Assembly: GCF_000186245.1 (NCBI RefSeq)
Contig: NC_014935.1
Coordinates: forward strand, 496,001 to 560,000
Length of the DNA: 64,000 bases
From: Nitratifractor salsuginis DSM 16511
GTDB taxonomy: Bacteria > Campylobacterota > Campylobacteria > Campylobacterales > Sulfurovaceae
Reading direction: 5' to 3'
Numbering within the stretch: the first letter of the stretch is position 1; each line of letters begins with the position of its first letter. Under the pieces are notes generated by a model. It was not told the DNA's origin and searched no databases. It saw only the letters and a list, made by a program, of their open reading frames with translations. The position numbers and the translations under genes were made by a program. Positions 50,418 through 63,539 of the stretch are shown in pieces.

Positions 50418-53090
50418 ATGGTCGGGCTTTTGCCTCCTTTGGTGCTGATTCTCTTGGCTGCTTATCTCCTCGGTATCTCATATCATCACATTTCCCAAGT
50501 TTCTGACTTGAAGAAGGTTTTGAAGAATGACAGGCTTATAAAAGAGGTGCTGCTTCAGATTGGGAAGGAACGAAGTATAAGTGCTCTCTATCTGGGGAAT
50601 AGACGGGAGGAGTTTCACCGAATGCTCAAGCAGCAGAGGGCAGCGTCGGACCGGGCGCTCACTGCACTTTGGAAAGGGCTCGATCATCAAGTGAAAGATT
50701 TGAAGCTTCGGGAGAGCTATCGGATCCTTTTTAGTAAGCTGAAGCAGCTTCAGGCTCTTCGAAAAAAGGTTGATGAAGGCAAAGTAGATTCTTTCTCTTT
50801 TGAAGATTTCTTCGTCAATGGATATACACAGAGTCTATTGGATCCCCTGGAGAGGAGCTATTCAGCTGTCCAAAATTACAAATTTGATTATGAGCTCGCT
50901 TCAAAAATCGTCTACCTTTTGCTCTACGAACATATAAGAGAGGCGAGCGATCTTGAGTGGGGCTATCTCGCCTATTATCTTGCCGGGGAATACGCGATGA
51001 GCTCCGAGGAGCATAGGAGCTGGCAAAATTACCATAACGAAGCGCATCTTGTCTCTCCGGATGAGGAAGAAGATGCCCTGGCTCGATCGATCAGTGCCCT
51101 GCTCAATCAGCCCAAAGTTCAGGAGCTCCGATCGAAGCTCGATAGATTTTTGGCCCTGATCGACTTTCATGCGGAAAAAGGCGATTATCCGATCGACGTT
51201 ATGGAGTGGTTTGAACTGCAAAATAAAAAAATTGCTCTCCTCGGCGAAATTGAAACACGGATCATCGATTCGAGTTACATCTCGGTTCAAAAATACATCG
51301 ATCAGGAGTTTCTTCATCTGATCGCCGCAGCCGTTGTCTTATTCGTTGGGTTGATGATGCTGTTCTGGGGATACAGGCTTTCCGGAGCGATGCAGGAACA
51401 TATCTCCAGATTGGAGGCGCTGGTCAAAACAATGCCCCATAACGGTGAAGAGGTGGATCTCGCTCAGTTGCGTTTCGACTCCCGTAAAGAGATTCAGAAG
51501 GTCTATCAGCTCCTGGAGTCGTCGTTGGAAAAGGCGGACAAAGAGCGAAGGAGTGCTCTGGATACGGCCAGGGCCAAGGATCTCTTCCTGGCCAATATGT
51601 CCCATGAAATCCGTACGCCGCTCAATGGAATCGTCGGCTTTATCCAGCTCCTGGAGACCACACCGCTCAACGAGGAGCAGCGGGAGTTCATCCGCGTCGT
51701 TCAGGAGAGTTCCCAGAATCTTTTGAATATCGTCAACGACATTCTCGATTTTTCGAAGATCGAAGCTGGGAAGGTGGAGCTCGAAGAGATCCCTTTCGAT
51801 CCCATCGACAAGTGGGAGATGGCTGTCGAGACCTATGCGGCCAAAGCGCTGCACAAAGGAATCGACTTCGCCGTCTATGTCGATCCCGCTCTTCCCGGAA
51901 GGATTTTGGGCGACCCAACCCGAATTTCCCAGGTGTTGGTCAACTTGGTAAACAATGCGATCAAATTCACGGAGCGTGGAGGCGAAGTTAGCGTTTTTTG
52001 CCAAAAAATGGGAGAACTCGAAGGGAATGTCTTTGTCAAGTTTGTCGTTTCCGATACGGGAATCGGTATCGCGCTGGATCAACAGGAAAAAATTTTCGAT
52101 CTCTTTACTCAGGCGGATTCCACGACAAGCCGGAAATTCGGGGGGACCGGTTTGGGGCTTTCCATCTCGAGTAAATTGGTTGCGGCGATGGGAGGCAAGC
52201 TTGCGGTAGAGAGTGAGCCCGGGAAGGGATCGAGCTTCTTCTTTACCCTGCCGCTCAAAAAAGACCCCGAAGCCCCCGAGCGCCGGAGGCCAAGTTTTCA
52301 GGGAACGAAGATCGGCCTGATTCAGGAGGGCTTCACACTCGATCGACAAAGGGATAAAAATCTCAAAACGTATGTGGAATACCTCGGGGCGGATTTCTCC
52401 GTTTATGACAAAAAGAGTCTTTTGAGGGGACGCTCCGGAGAAATGCCCGATCTCTTCTTCCTCGATGAGGATTGCCTGGACGGACAGAAAGAGCTTGTCA
52501 AACTGTTGATCCTCAAGGTTCCCATCAGTCTGATCACTTCCGGGGAAAACAAAAAGATTCTCGATGCGATCAAATCGAAGCTCAATACGCTCATATACAA
52601 ACCGCTGAACTACTCCAAAACGCTTCGTGCTCTAAGTAAATACGCCGGTCTGGAAAGCAGCCATGCGGAGGGATTCAAATCGGAAATGGCGTTCAGAGAC
52701 TTGAAAGTCCTGGTGGCCGAGGACAACCCCATCAACCAAAAACTGATCATTGCGACACTTTCGCGATTCGGGATCGATGTGGCGATCGCCAATAACGGGG
52801 AAGAGGCGTTCGAGAGGCGCAAAGAGGATAATTTTGATCTGATCTTTATGGATATTCAAATGCCGGTAATGGATGGGGTGGAGGCGACACGGGCGATTTT
52901 GGCGTATGAACGCGAAACGGACAGCCCCCATATCCCGATCATCGCGCTGACAGCCAATGCGGTTCAGGGAAACAAGGATCAGTATCTGGCAGCGGGGATG
53001 GACGACTATATCGCCAAACCGATCAATATCGATCGTCTGCGTAATCTGATCGGTTATTATGCGCCCGATAAGGTTGTCAAAAGCTCCTGA
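50418..53090 (+). CDS. Hybrid sensor histidine kinase with NIT domain and receivers
   Basis: An 890-residue protein. Layout: N-terminal helix (5-25); a large periplasmic NIT-type all-helical sensor (about 30-295) with the hallmark LLQIGKERSISALYLGNR; second helix (about 297-318); coiled linker; HisKA with MSHEIRTPLNG; ATPase with LVNLVNNAIKFTE and GGTGLGLSIS; a degenerate receiver (about 630-745) with the Asp region changed to DLFFLDEDC; and a C-terminal receiver with phosphoacceptor in IFMDIQMPVMDG. NIT domains sense nitrate or nitrite. No output regulator is adjacent, so it likely signals through a separate phosphotransfer protein. Confidence 0.9.
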   Translation: MVGLLPPLVLILLAAYLLGISYHHISQVSDLKKVLKNDRLIKEVLLQIGKERSISALYLGNRREEFHRMLKQQRAASDRALTALWKGLDHQVKDLKLRESYRILFSKLKQLQALRKKVDEGKVDSFSFEDFFVNGYTQSLLDPLERSYSAVQNYKFDYELASKIVYLLLYEHIREASDLEWGYLAYYLAGEYAMSSEEHRSWQNYHNEAHLVSPDEEEDALARSISALLNQPKVQELRSKLDRFLALIDFHAEKGDYPIDVMEWFELQNKKIALLGEIETRIIDSSYISVQKYIDQEFLHLIAAAVVLFVGLMMLFWGYRLSGAMQEHISRLEALVKTMPHNGEEVDLAQLRFDSRKEIQKVYQLLESSLEKADKERRSALDTARAKDLFLANMSHEIRTPLNGIVGFIQLLETTPLNEEQREFIRVVQESSQNLLNIVNDILDFSKIEAGKVELEEIPFDPIDKWEMAVETYAAKALHKGIDFAVYVDPALPGRILGDPTRISQVLVNLVNNAIKFTERGGEVSVFCQKMGELEGNVFVKFVVSDTGIGIALDQQEKIFDLFTQADSTTSRKFGGTGLGLSISSKLVAAMGGKLAVESEPGKGSSFFFTLPLKKDPEAPERRRPSFQGTKIGLIQEGFTLDRQRDKNLKTYVEYLGADFSVYDKKSLLRGRSGEMPDLFFLDEDCLDGQKELVKLLILKVPISLITSGENKKILDAIKSKLNTLIYKPLNYSKTLRALSKYAGLESSHAEGFKSEMAFRDLKVLVAEDNPINQKLIIATLSRFGIDVAIANNGEEAFERRKEDNFDLIFMDIQMPVMDGVEATRAILAYERETDSPHIPIIALTANAVQGNKDQYLAAGMDDYIAKPINIDRLRNLIGYYAPDKVVKSS

Positions 53091-55040: not shown

Positions 55041-56179
55041 CGGTAGACTCTCGTTCCTTCCGAGAGAGGTTTTTTATGGGGATCGGGCAGGAGGATGGTT
55101 TCATTCCCCTTCAAGCTTTCGACGGCGACTTTGTTCCCTTGTACGGCCAGCGCTTTGACTTTGACGAAGTGGGCTCTGCCGTTTCGGTCGATCCAGACGC
55201 CGCCGTGCTGTAGGGCTTTTTTGGGGAGGATGATGGCGTTTTTGAGCTTTCCGGTTTGGATGGTCACTTCGGCCTGCTCTTTGAGGTAGAAGGGCCGGGG
55301 GAGTTTGTCGAAAGCCACTTCGACAATGCGCTCTTCGGTTACAGGATCACTCTGGGGTTCGATACGCGCCACTTTGCCCGCGAGGGGCGCTCCGGGGCGG
55401 GAGCGCAGCCGGATCGTTGAGGGTTCGCCGGGGCGGAGCTTTTGGCTCAGCGCTTCGTCGATGGTGGCACTCACCCAGACATCCCGGGGGCGGACGATGG
55501 TGAGTATGGGCTGCTGGGGGGCGACGGTCTGGGAGGGCTGGGCGTCGCGGTGGACGACGAGGCCGTTGACCGGCGCGTGGATCTCGAAACGGCTCAGGCG
55601 TTTTTGCAGGGCGTCGATATTGAGGCGGGCTTCGCTCTCCTGGGCTTTGAGAGCTTCGATCTCCGCCTCTTTGGCGGCGATCTGGGCTTGCACGGACCGG
55701 AGATTGGCCTGGGCCTTGTCGTATTCCGATTCGGGGGCGTAGCCTTTGGGAGAGAGCTTTTGGTAGCGGGCGAAGACGATCTGCGCCAGCTTCAACTGTG
55801 CCTTGAGGCTCTCGAGATCCTTCCTGGCCGCCTGGAGGTTGAAGCGCAGGCTCTGCAGGTGGGCCCGGGCCTGGGCGATCTGATCGGGCAGGTCCACCGG
55901 GTCGATACGGGCGATGAGCTCCCCTTGTCGTACAGTTTCTCCCTGATCCTTGAGGACCGCCAGGAGCTTGCCGCCGTAGGTGGAGCCCACGGGATAGAGG
56001 GTCTTCGCCTCCACCGTGGCGATGCCGAAGACACTGAGGTTCATCTCTCCCCTCATGGGATGGATCGTTCGGTAGCTGTGTTTGGGGATGAAGAGCTTGG
56101 TATAGAAAAGCAGGCCCGTTATGGCTAGGAGTAGGAGCCCAACCAGAGTTTTGGCCAGGGAGCGCAAGGAAGGATTCAC
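55037..56179 (-). CDS. HlyD/MacA-family periplasmic adaptor
   Basis: A 380-residue adaptor: N-terminal helix (about 10-27), a biotinyl-lipoyl-like strand region, a long coiled-coil hairpin (about 95-195, rich in Ala, Leu, Gln, Glu, Arg), then the second lipoyl half with HAPVNGLVVHRDAQPSQTV and beta-barrel domains. It bridges the MacB-type permease to an outer-membrane channel; no TolC homolog lies in this window. The start overlaps the channel-like gene by one base. Confidence 0.92.
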   Translation of the reverse strand: MNPSLRSLAKTLVGLLLLAITGLLFYTKLFIPKHSYRTIHPMRGEMNLSVFGIATVEAKTLYPVGSTYGGKLLAVLKDQGETVRQGELIARIDPVDLPDQIAQARAHLQSLRFNLQAARKDLESLKAQLKLAQIVFARYQKLSPKGYAPESEYDKAQANLRSVQAQIAAKEAEIEALKAQESEARLNIDALQKRLSRFEIHAPVNGLVVHRDAQPSQTVAPQQPILTIVRPRDVWVSATIDEALSQKLRPGEPSTIRLRSRPGAPLAGKVARIEPQSDPVTEERIVEVAFDKLPRPFYLKEQAEVTIQTGKLKNAIILPKKALQHGGVWIDRNGRAHFVKVKALAVQGNKVAVESLKGNETILLPDPHKKPLSEGTRVYR

Positions 56180-56760
56180 TATTTGATCTCCTTGTTCTGA
56201 TGGGCGTAGAGCAAAATCGCGACGAAGACACCGCCCTGTACGACGCCCAAGATCACTTCGCTGATGACGGCGACCATCGCCGGAAGGGTCTGGGGGATCC
56301 AGTCGCCCGAACCCAGCGTCGTGAAGGTGACGGCAGAGATATACATGCTCAGGATGAAGTCATGGGACTGGATCTCCGCCAGATTCTCCGTCGAAAGCTG
56401 GGAGTTGAGGTGAAAAAGATGAAAAGGATCGAAAAACCAGTAGATTGTGGCATAAAAGAGGATGGTGATTACCGTTACCTCCAAATAGAGCATCACCACA
56501 TGCAGCAAAGCGATATGAAAATGACGCTTGATATGACTGAAGATGTAGATCGCGACATCGAGCAGTAAAAAGCGCGCCAACACGATGTAAAGAATATCGG
56601 CGAACATGATGGCGTCTCGATGCTCCATAAACCACCCGAAATAGGCATACTGCAAATAGATCTGGGGCAGAAGAGGCAGGAGGACCAAGGGCAGGATGAG
56701 GAAAGCAATGTTGTCACTCTTGATCCAGCGGTTTTTCCGTTCGGCGAGGCGGCTGAGCAT
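56179..56760 (-). CDS. Ion-channel-like membrane protein
   Basis: A 193-residue protein with four helices. Between the last two lies a pore-loop-like sequence, ISAVTFTTLGSGDWIPQT, resembling potassium channel filters (TxxTxGxGD) with one or two changes. There is no cytoplasmic regulatory domain. It belongs to the ArsR-operator operon, which is unusual for a channel of this kind. Ion selectivity cannot be told. Confidence 0.75.
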   Translation of the reverse strand: MLSRLAERKNRWIKSDNIAFLILPLVLLPLLPQIYLQYAYFGWFMEHRDAIMFADILYIVLARFLLLDVAIYIFSHIKRHFHIALLHVVMLYLEVTVITILFYATIYWFFDPFHLFHLNSQLSTENLAEIQSHDFILSMYISAVTFTTLGSGDWIPQTLPAMVAVISEVILGVVQGGVFVAILLYAHQNKEIK

Positions 56761-58261: not shown

Positions 58262-58299
58262 TTTTTCTCCTTAGGGTATTGATTGCGAGTTGAAATTAT

Positions 58300-58315
58300 A
58301 TCAAAATATCTCGAT
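58300..58315 (-). promoter_or_regulatory. ArsR operator upstream of the seven-gene exporter operon
   Basis: ATCAA-AATATC-TCGAT, one mismatch from the perfect site at 50275 and with an identical spacer. It is 39 bases upstream of the AhpD-like gene, a distance similar to the other three sites. Confidence 0.72.
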
Positions 58316-58331
58316 ATTTAAAAACAGAGCC

Positions 58332-59471
58332 CTAGCTCTTGAGCTCCTTGCCCGTCAGGAAGAGGGTGAGCTTCATCGCCTCTCCCAGCAGATCCAAACC
58401 TTCGGCGATGTAAATGCGGTTGGAGAGGCTCTTGAGCCGAAGAGCCAGGTAGAGAATGCGCTCTTCGGCGGGGAGGTAGAGATGCTTGACGATATCCCAG
58501 GCCTCCTCTTCGGGCTCCTCGTCCAGGAATTCCAGAGATTCGATGGCCCAGCCGTAAGTGTTTTCGAGGATGCCCCGGATGTTCCGGCGTGCCTCCTCTG
58601 CGGAGATGGCGGCCTCTTTGGCGGTGCTGCGGCGGTAGAGGATGTCGGTCATCGCCCGCAGAGAGGCCAGAGAGCTGCCCAGGGTCATATAGGCACTGAC
58701 GCTCAGGTCGTTGAGGGGATGGAGGATCGATTCGTCGAGGAGCTCGGCGGCCCGGGCGGCCTCTTCGGGGCTCCGGGCCTGCTCCAGTTCGGTGCAGTGG
58801 CGCTTGACGATGGAGAGTTTCAATCCGATCGCTTCGAGGATCTGGCGGTAGGGAGCGAGTTTGTCCAGGGCTTCACGGAAAGCGGCGCTCTGTTTCGGAT
58901 CGATTTTTTGCTCTTCTCCTGAGGCGATTTGGCGCACCCTCTGGCGGCAGAGACTGTAGCGGGCGTAGAGCTCGTTGACGGCGAGGAAGAGGTCGTTGGC
59001 CCGGTAGGGGGTCTTCTCCAGGGTCTTCTGGGCGAAATACTCCTGCCCCATGATCGCCTCGGCCACTTTGAGGTATTTGATCACCAGTTTCAGATAAGGC
59101 AGCAGTCCGGGATCTCTTTGGGATTGGGCGAGGATGAGCTGGGAGAGGAGGTGGAACCCGTAGGACATGGAGATGGGGTCGAGACGGATGTGATAGTGGA
59201 CGATCCCCACACGGGCGATGTGCCGGTAGAGCTTGTCGTCAAAGGGTTTGGAGAGGAGTTCTGCAACGAAAGCGATCTGCTTTTTCTTGAGCTCGGGAAT
59301 CCTTTCTCTTGGAATGAAGGAGGCGAGCTCCTCTTTTTCCAGAAGCTTTTCATAAAAACGGTCCATGATCTCCCCGGCGTAGGGGGCGAGCTTTTCAAGC
59401 GCCTCCTTGCGCATCTTCAGGTCGTTTTCATCCAGGTCGTAGATCTCTTTGATGAGTGTCAGTTTGTCCAT
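58332..59471 (-). CDS. Globin-coupled sensor with unknown helical output
   Basis: A 379-residue protein from ATG 59471. Residues about 1-165 form a sensor globin: RFYEKLLEKEELASFIPRER and ARVGIVHYHIRLDPISMSYGF, with the proximal haem His in the VHYHI segment. The remaining 210 residues are helical and show no GGDEF, kinase or chemoreceptor motif. It should bind O2, NO or CO. Its start overlaps the stop of the cyclic-nucleotide-binding gene (TAATG). Confidence 0.85.
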   Translation of the reverse strand: MDKLTLIKEIYDLDENDLKMRKEALEKLAPYAGEIMDRFYEKLLEKEELASFIPRERIPELKKKQIAFVAELLSKPFDDKLYRHIARVGIVHYHIRLDPISMSYGFHLLSQLILAQSQRDPGLLPYLKLVIKYLKVAEAIMGQEYFAQKTLEKTPYRANDLFLAVNELYARYSLCRQRVRQIASGEEQKIDPKQSAAFREALDKLAPYRQILEAIGLKLSIVKRHCTELEQARSPEEAARAAELLDESILHPLNDLSVSAYMTLGSSLASLRAMTDILYRRSTAKEAAISAEEARRNIRGILENTYGWAIESLEFLDEEPEEEAWDIVKHLYLPAEERILYLALRLKSLSNRIYIAEGLDLLGEAMKLTLFLTGKELKS

Positions 59472-59929
59472 TAGAGCACCTCCTCGAGTGTTTTGTACAT
59501 TTCGGCGATCTTTTCGTCGCTGCGCCGCAGAAAGCGGGCCAGGGCTTGTGTGAGGTTTTTCAGGAGCACCATACCGATTTCGGGATGCTTCCGGCAGAAA
59601 TCGAGAAATTTTTTCCGGTCGATCTCCCGGATCGTACACTCCGAAGCTGTGATCAACTTGGTCAAGCTCGAGCCCCCGTCGACCAGGGAGGTGAGGGAGA
59701 AGAGGACATCCTCTCCCCCTTCGATGACGGCGATTTCCAGTTCTTCTCCCTCGGAGGAGTGTTTGTGCACCCGGATACTCCCTATTTCGAGGAAAAAGGC
59801 TGCCGTAGTCGCTTTGCCCTCTTCCCGCAACACCGTTCCCTTGGGAACCGTGTGGCTTGCAAAAGCGGAGAGTACTTCCTCAATCTGTTTGGAATCTAAT
59901 CCGTCGAAAAGTTGGCTTTTGATCTCCAT
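59471..59929 (-). CDS. Stand-alone cyclic-nucleotide-binding domain protein
   Basis: A 152-residue protein from ATG 59929 that is a single cNMP/CRP-like beta-roll (FASHTVPKGTVLREEGKATT, FFLEIGSIRVHK, GEDVLFSLTSLV) with a helical tail and no DNA-binding domain. It lacks the usual RSA phosphate-binding motif, so it may bind another ligand or act as a protein partner. It lies between a potassium channel gene (1-base gap) and the globin sensor. Confidence 0.85.
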   Translation of the reverse strand: MEIKSQLFDGLDSKQIEEVLSAFASHTVPKGTVLREEGKATTAAFFLEIGSIRVHKHSSEGEELEIAVIEGGEDVLFSLTSLVDGGSSLTKLITASECTIREIDRKKFLDFCRKHPEIGMVLLKNLTQALARFLRRSDEKIAEMYKTLEEVL

Positions 59930-59930
59930 A

Positions 59931-61013
59931 TCAACGCTCCATAATGATGATGGCCGAGAATTCGGGAATGATGAAATCATCTTCGGGATTGATGAGCACC
60001 TCCATCTCGATCTCGTTACGTTTTATTTTTCCGAGCAGCTCTTTGTATTTTTCACTCTCGTTTCCGTATCTTATCTTGTTCAAAACAATATGCTTGAGCT
60101 GCGTACCCGTAATGTAGTTTTTTACGACGCCGAGGAGGATCTGATTCTTTTTGATGCTTTCCTCGAAGGCTTCCGCATACCGTTTCCCTTCGAAGGGGTG
60201 CTTGGTGATGATGTGGAAATTCTGGGTGCGCAGGAGGTTTCGGATCACCTTGGACATCCCCGGTTCGCTGATCGATTTGGAGAGGAGGAAGCGGTTGTAC
60301 TCTTCGCTCATGATGATTTCGTCACATCGACTCTTGATGAGGTAGTTTTCAAATTTGGCATCGTTGATCTCGGCGATGATGTAGACGCCGGAGTTGAGGG
60401 AGCGGATGACGATCACGGTCTCCAGGACCTTGGCGTCGGCGTATTCATCATGCATATTGAGGATCATCACCTTGTCGGCTTTCTCGATCCTCGCCTCTCT
60501 GAGTGCCAGTTCGTCATTGTATTCGCCCTGGACGAATTTGAGGCCGTTCTCTTCGAGCACTTTTTCCAACTCGGGGGAGAGTTCGGGATAGATGATGACG
60601 ATCCGCTCACCGTACTTTTCCTTGAACCCCTCCAAAACCTCTTTTCTCGGGGTTTTGAACCCGCAAATCACCAGATGATGTTCCAAGCCTTCCAAATTCT
60701 CATACCCCTTTTTCGCAAAGATTTTCGTCGTGACCAGTTGGCTGGTCATCAGCGCGGTGAAGGCGGCCACAGCGATCACCCCGCCGACGATGATGACGAT
60801 CGCCACCATTCGCCCCGCCTCCGTGTGAGGGACCATATCTCCATACCCCACCGTGGTCGCCGTGACGACGGACCACCAGAGTCCGTCGAAAAACGTTCGG
60901 TAGTTGTGGGGCTCGATGAGGGTCATGATCTCCGAGGCGACCATCAGGAAGATCGTATAGAAGAAGATATAGACTGCCGCCAGGCTGAATTCAATTTTTT
61001 TCATCTTCTCCAC
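59931..61013 (-). CDS. Potassium channel with RCK/TrkA domains
   Basis: A 360-residue channel. It has two helices around the selectivity filter TATTVGYGDMVP (about 52-63), then a RCK/TrkA-N domain (HHLVICGF...) and a TrkA-C-like end. The start is GTG 61013 with GGAG eight bases upstream; ATG 61004 is the alternative. It leads an operon with a cyclic-nucleotide-binding protein and a globin sensor, suggesting gas- or redox-linked control of potassium flux. Confidence 0.9.
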   Translation of the reverse strand: MEKMKKIEFSLAAVYIFFYTIFLMVASEIMTLIEPHNYRTFFDGLWWSVVTATTVGYGDMVPHTEAGRMVAIVIIVGGVIAVAAFTALMTSQLVTTKIFAKKGYENLEGLEHHLVICGFKTPRKEVLEGFKEKYGERIVIIYPELSPELEKVLEENGLKFVQGEYNDELALREARIEKADKVMILNMHDEYADAKVLETVIVIRSLNSGVYIIAEINDAKFENYLIKSRCDEIIMSEEYNRFLLSKSISEPGMSKVIRNLLRTQNFHIITKHPFEGKRYAEAFEESIKKNQILLGVVKNYITGTQLKHIVLNKIRYGNESEKYKELLGKIKRNEIEMEVLINPEDDFIIPEFSAIIIMER

Positions 61014-61108
61014 TCATTGGGCTCCATCATTTCAATTCACTCATTTTACAGTAAGTCAGAGATCTTTCCGATGTACCCCCTTGATCGTTTCACTTATTCC
61101 GTCGTTCC

Positions 61109-63293: not shown

Positions 63294-63539
63294 TTATGAA
63301 GGTTTGATGTGGCATTTTTGGGCGCGGATCTCTTTGATATGACGCACCTTTTTTTCGAGATCCAGGAGCATTTCATACTGTTCGGAGTGGGTATGTCCGT
63401 GCTCCTCCATCCGTCTTTTGCGCTCTTCGATCGTTTCGAGCCACTCGTCGATCACTTCGTCGGGGACGGTGCAGTCTTCGGCATCTTTCTCTTCGTGTTC
63501 GACGATCCAGTCGGCGATCTTTTTCAGGATATGGATCAT
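63294..63539 (-). CDS. Small charged protein of unknown function
   Basis: An 81-residue soluble protein, helical and rich in Glu, Lys and His, with two separated Cys (EDCTVPDE and QKCHIKPS). The start ATG 63539 has AGGAGG upstream. It sits between the TauE/SafE permease and chrA with short gaps, so it is probably cotranscribed. No family recognised. Confidence 0.7.
   Translation of the reverse strand: MIHILKKIADWIVEHEEKDAEDCTVPDEVIDEWLETIEERKRRMEEHGHTHSEQYEMLLDLEKKVRHIKEIRAQKCHIKPS

Follow-up and report, generated by a model that had tools for sequence, protein, structure and literature searches.

A possible gas-responsive potassium channel encoded by a conserved three-gene locus of Nitratifractor salsuginis

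Why should the gene of a globin sensor lie directly behind those of a potassium channel and of a stand-alone CNBD-fold protein, and do the three products act together? This arrangement is found in Nitratifractor salsuginis E9I37-1, a hydrogen-oxidising, nitrate-reducing vent bacterium of anaerobic to microaerobic life (PMC3156401), whose genome is a single contig of 2,101,285 bases. The locus lies within a stretch of 64,000 nucleotides of that contig (positions 496,001 to 560,000), hereafter the window, to which coordinates without a locus label refer. Our reading, to which we assign a probability of roughly one half, is that the triad would be one functional unit, a gas-responsive K+ channel with its gating apparatus split over three polypeptides.

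The locus, the channel and the CNBD-fold protein

The initial annotation had described a potassium channel, a cNMP-domain protein and a globin sensor in one overlapping operon, and indeed all three open reading frames were present on the minus strand with the matching domains. The first (59931-61013, GTG start) encodes a potassium channel subunit of 360 aa, the second (59471-59929, ATG start) a stand-alone CNBD-fold protein of 152 aa, and the third (58332-59471, ATG start) a protoglobin protein of 379 aa. The channel and CNBD genes are separated by a single base (59930), and the CNBD stop and globin start overlap by one base in TAATG. The 95 bases that separate the channel gene from the CDF transporter gene upstream of it (61014-61108, minus strand) may be the site of a promoter of the triad's own; a sigma-70 consensus scan found no match in this stretch. 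The stretch following the globin stop (58290-58331, minus strand) contains a T-run and a promoter-like element, TTTAAA-16-TATAAT at 58322-58295, which was assigned to the next gene, and a terminator-like match was located around the globin gene end (58347-58326). An RNA hairpin 3′ of the globin gene was no better than shuffles (z 0.17), so that 58290-58331 is a possible, weakly indicated end of the triad transcript.

The channel matched Ion_trans_2 (E 3.7e-17) and TrkA_N (E 2.7e-12) in Pfam and consists of two transmembrane helices, an RCK (TrkA_N) domain at residues 115-235 and a further conserved cytosolic part at 236-360. The TVGYGD filter was invariant in 13 channel homologues, and the nearest solved relative in the PDB was MthK (E 2.8e-15). 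The two-transmembrane pore with TVGYGD and the RCK domain place the protein among the RCK-gated potassium channels. The glycine loop of the RCK domain read GFK[TS]PR in all 13 homologues, and the dinucleotide-binding GxGxxG was absent. The AlphaFold2 model of the channel, including the RCK C-lobe/gating ring region, was of low confidence (mean pLDDT 60.5).

A small Ion_trans_2 channel-like protein is also encoded in the window (56179-56760, minus strand) and carries TTLGSGDW instead of TVGYGD. Its relatives were located at L026:2254-2832, L050:249-851 and L122:7441-8052; the altered filter was invariant in the four genomes, and in all four the gene lay near a triad-type channel.

The CNBD-fold protein had cNMP_binding as its sole Pfam match (E 1.6e-11) and ended after the CNBD helix. 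It had been annotated as a lone CRP-like beta-roll, and this description was borne out in part: the fold is that of cNMP_binding and Pfam detected no helix-turn-helix or other DNA-binding domain in the 152 aa, but the residues that bind the cyclic-nucleotide phosphate are missing. When aligned to the CRP-family structure 4ev0, the phosphate-binding cassette read FSL...SLT in place of FGE...RSA, and the cassette Glu and Arg were both gone in 14 of 14 triad-type copies, which makes a direct response of the triad CNBD to cAMP or cGMP unlikely. The C-terminal tail MY[KQN]TLEEVL was invariant in the same 14 copies and suggests a docking surface. Two more familiar identities were rejected. A CRP/FNR transcription factor would have a C-terminal helix-turn-helix, which is absent, and a cyclic-nucleotide-gated channel is contradicted by the lost triad cassette and by the placement of CNBD and pore on separate open reading frames in all triad loci and in the globin-free dyad loci described below.

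These sequences bear on a reading in which the channel answers a small ligand, such as a non-canonical nucleotide or a metal, at its CNBD or RCK domain while the globin merely tunes the response. RCK domains commonly bind ligands, and the genome contains a weak class III cyclase-like match. Since the cassette residues are missing in every triad-type CNBD, the RCK domain is without GxGxxG, and no match to the diadenylate cyclase families was found in the genome, we regard this reading as distinctly unlikely.

Distribution of the triad and its globin-free relatives

Samples of 298 Campylobacterota genomes, 399 genomes of the order and 84,980 species were searched and the loci then read. The complete triad was present in identical order in 13 distinct Campylobacterota genomes (G000, G073, G029, G031, G036, G009, G351, G366, G387, G392 and G397, plus the records L057 and L062; L058-L061 duplicate the DNA of G397, G387, G351 and G366 and were counted once), a recurrence that argues against a chance arrangement. 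The three genes were thus not found apart in most relatives, and the triad can be retained as a conserved unit. In the 399-genome sample a close channel (at least 63% identity) occurred in 14 genomes; the CNBD gene adjoined it in every one, and the globin gene came next in 13 and was intact in 11. The distribution is patchy, with the triad in one of six sampled members of its own genus. The 84,980-species search reached only six loci, all from Campylobacterota, so that the triad may also occur in other phyla.

The exceptions concern the globin gene. Genome G104 has the channel and CNBD genes and no globin, indicating that the channel can persist without it. The globin protein was reduced to a bare globin domain in G218 (L026:1027-1521) and was split into two frames in G406 (L122:5581-6533), and the gene therefore decays in places. 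In G329 a fragment of the globin gene was found at a contig edge. No intact full-length copy of the triad globin protein was found apart from the channel and CNBD genes in the 298 Campylobacterota genomes and the 399 genomes of the order.

The outer neighbours varied from locus to locus. Upstream of the triad lay a CDF gene (window and G029), an FAD oxidoreductase (G009) or an RND-type pump (L058-L060), and downstream, among others, a CMD gene or the gene of a 105-aa protein, neighbours outside the window being named by eye from sequence. That the triad stayed intact throughout argues that it is a unit and not merely part of a fixed island. Two small conserved proteins without a Pfam match, of 81 aa (63294-63539, minus strand) and 105 aa (L022:9060-9377), recurred beside triad and transporter genes. 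Pairwise distances were correlated among the three triad proteins (r 0.83-0.91), as co-inheritance predicts.

Co-inheritance within a stress island is itself a rival explanation, in which channel and CNBD protein cooperate and the globin is merely co-transcribed, acting independently in O2 or NO binding or scavenging, or in other sensing. It would account for the genome that lacks the globin and the two in which the globin is damaged, and it suits the transport and redox surroundings of the triad (CDF, chromate transporter, TauE, DsbD-like, thioredoxin, ArsP permease and HlyD/MacB/ABC). However, the three genes remain joined while their outer neighbours change, the intact full-length globin protein was never seen apart from the other two (the G329 copy lying at a contig edge), and the protein retains signal-transmitting modules for which a scavenger would have no need. 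On balance we consider an independent globin unlikely.

The order-wide search also recovered three distant channels of 32-43% identity (G309, G302 and G340). In each case the gene directly behind the channel encoded a separate CNBD protein of 152-154 aa, and a globin gene was absent from all three loci. These dyads lend weight to the initial annotation's proposal of a split channel regulator. The dyad CNBDs of G302 (FFGEINLIDEGKRTST) and G309 (FFSEINLIDRGKRTST) carry both the Glu and the Arg of the cassette; that of G340 carries the Glu only. Triad-type and dyad-type proteins were split at 100/100 support in both gene trees. A plasmid search with a dyad channel returned generic channels only (best identity 29%). 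Several Campylobacterota (L052-L056) also encode, immediately behind recJ, a stand-alone CNBD protein of about 154 aa from the same family, with the Glu kept and the Arg replaced.

The simplest reading of these data, which is not proven, is that of an old two-gene module, a channel with a detached CNBD, whose nucleotide pocket would have decayed in the lineage that gained the globin subunit. With only three dyads available, one of them lacking the cassette Arg, the polarity of such an exchange of inputs rests on few sequences. We propose only tentatively that the sensory input of a K+ channel was exchanged in evolution, a pocket-less CNBD having become the adaptor for a haem-globin subunit to give a directly gas-gated bacterial channel.

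The globin protein and its kinase relatives

The globin protein matched Protoglobin over residues 3-147 (E 2.9e-16). Its Tyr40 and His92 aligned with Tyr45 and His99 of AfGcHK, an oxygen sensor in which His99 is the haem ligand and Tyr45 the O2-recognition residue (PMC8697598), and both were invariant in 12 of 12 orthologues. The protein thus has the N-terminal sensor globin of globin-coupled sensors, with proximal His and distal Tyr, and is predicted to bind haem; a globin domain without haem, which would speak against a sensor, is not what the sequence suggests. Of the gases named in the initial annotation, O2 is the likeliest ligand given the distal Tyr and the host's microaerobic way of life; for a denitrifier, NO would be a plausible alternative. 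N2O finds no support, and to our knowledge it is not a ligand of such globins.

No Pfam match was found C-terminal of the globin in the 379 aa, and a known attached output (kinase, GGDEF, MCP or STAS) was absent. AlphaFold2 predicted three modules, the globin (1-153), a helical one (158-280) and an alpha-beta-beta-beta-alpha one (291-378), with a mean pLDDT of 81 and a pTM of 0.46, indicating that the domain folds are reliable and their mutual arrangement is not. The significant PDB fold matches to this model were globin sensor domains only, the best being AfGcHK (5ohf/5ohe). Globin-coupled histidine kinases of Campylobacterota (650-780 aa) share these modules and continue with HisKA and HATPase_c. 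The globin protein aligned over its full length with the sensory half of six such kinases, ending near the start of HisKA, and its middle region matched these kinases with an hhalign probability of 90.6 (E 1.3e-6). HisKA and HATPase_c were absent from the 379-aa protein and from the two orthologues scanned. With the modules shared and the kinase absent, the protein looks like the sensory half of a globin-coupled kinase. The "unfamiliar helical output" that had been ascribed to it must be abandoned: by these comparisons the post-globin region (about 150-379) is common to globin-coupled histidine kinases and hence no new output, and its last third is predicted to be alpha/beta rather than all-helical.

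This kinship raises the alternative that the globin protein serves as a receptor without a kinase of its own and acts in trans on a histidine kinase, with channel and CNBD protein downstream or unrelated. The full-length match to the sensory half and its end near HisKA would fit such a role, and a hybrid histidine kinase whose NIT domain senses nitrate/nitrite (NIT, HisKA, HATPase, receiver) is encoded 5 kb away (50418-53090, plus strand). In the loci examined, however, the conserved unit contains no kinase, and action in trans appears highly unlikely.

In some globin-coupled kinases (L010, L011, L013 and L028) the proximal His has been lost from the globin, unlike in the triad globins, and the middle module of most of them shows a conserved H...C...HxxxH, a CZB-like pattern. 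Assignment of the middle module to the zinc-binding CZB family was rejected, since comparison with a profile of 28 Campylobacterota CZB sequences gave an hhalign E of 0.19 for the triad protein and a probability of 6.4% for the kinases; a search of the PDB with the module likewise returned no match. A dithiol switch of Cys175 and Cys226 was also dropped: both residues are present in 11 of 12 orthologues and both are missing in L062, which is too little to claim one. A second protoglobin of the genome (L001:1480-2385, C1:1556068-1556520 region) is an unusual globin-membrane protein, in which the globin is joined to a membrane domain of the PsiE type (Protoglobin and PF06146), and has a relative at L018:955-1866.

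A proposed mechanism and its known relatives

In the proposed mechanism, the ancestral module would have been an RCK channel with a detached CNBD-fold protein. In the N. salsuginis lineage the CNBD would have lost its nucleotide cassette and become an adaptor, and a new input would have been added, a haem-globin sensor that shares ancestry with globin-coupled histidine kinases and lacks the kinase. Binding of O2 to the globin (alternatively of NO or CO, or oxidation of the haem) would alter the protein's two further modules, middle and C-terminal, whose counterparts in the kinases are located between globin and HisKA. Protein contacts, probably those made by the CNBD tail that is invariant among the triads, would relay this change to the RCK ring, whose shift would open or close the pore. 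A vent cell passing from anoxic to micro-oxic fluid or back would thereby alter its K+ efflux and its membrane potential. Complex formation by the three triad proteins, the direction of gating and the identity of the gas are matters that we infer from sequence.

Several lines of evidence favour one functional unit: the 13 complete triads with constant CNBD adjacency, changing outer neighbours and patchy distribution; the invariant His92 and Tyr40 and the kinase-type modules without a kinase; the cassette lost in triads and kept in G302 and G309; and the invariant CNBD tail, the fully supported tree split and the correlated distances. Against this, adjacency and correlated distances also arise from simple co-inheritance. 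If the reading is true, the triad would be a small bacterial system in which to reconstitute the control of a K+ channel by oxygen, a long-standing subject of debate in animals, and would show a channel that changed its sensor by gene exchange and not by fusion. A search of the open-access literature found no published description of a globin and potassium channel arrangement or operon.

The triad nevertheless resembles known systems in its parts. With MthK-type RCK channels it shares the two-transmembrane pore with TVGYGD and the cytosolic RCK domain, MthK being the best PDB match, but its channel is encoded with a separate CNBD and globin and its RCK loop lacks GxGxxG. Prokaryotic CNBD channels of the MloK1/SthK type resemble it in combining a K+ pore with a CNBD-fold regulator; in the triad, the CNBD is a separate gene product that has lost the cAMP cassette, and the channel has an RCK domain. 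With globin-coupled histidine kinases the globin protein shares the AfGcHK-like proximal His and distal Tyr and, with those of Campylobacterota, the middle and pre-kinase modules, but it is without HisKA/HATPase and is co-encoded with an ion channel. A likeness in proposed mode is offered by the Vibrio haem-globin RsbR stressosome, in which a globin sensor works through contact with partner proteins encoded by separate genes (PMC4976288); the output there is a STAS/kinase stressosome, whereas here it would be a channel. Finally, the globin protein has the sensor of the globin-coupled sensors and not the attached output that defines them. Known members of that class feed kinases, cyclases, chemoreceptors or stressosomes, and an ion channel, if the proposed reading is true, would be a new class of output.
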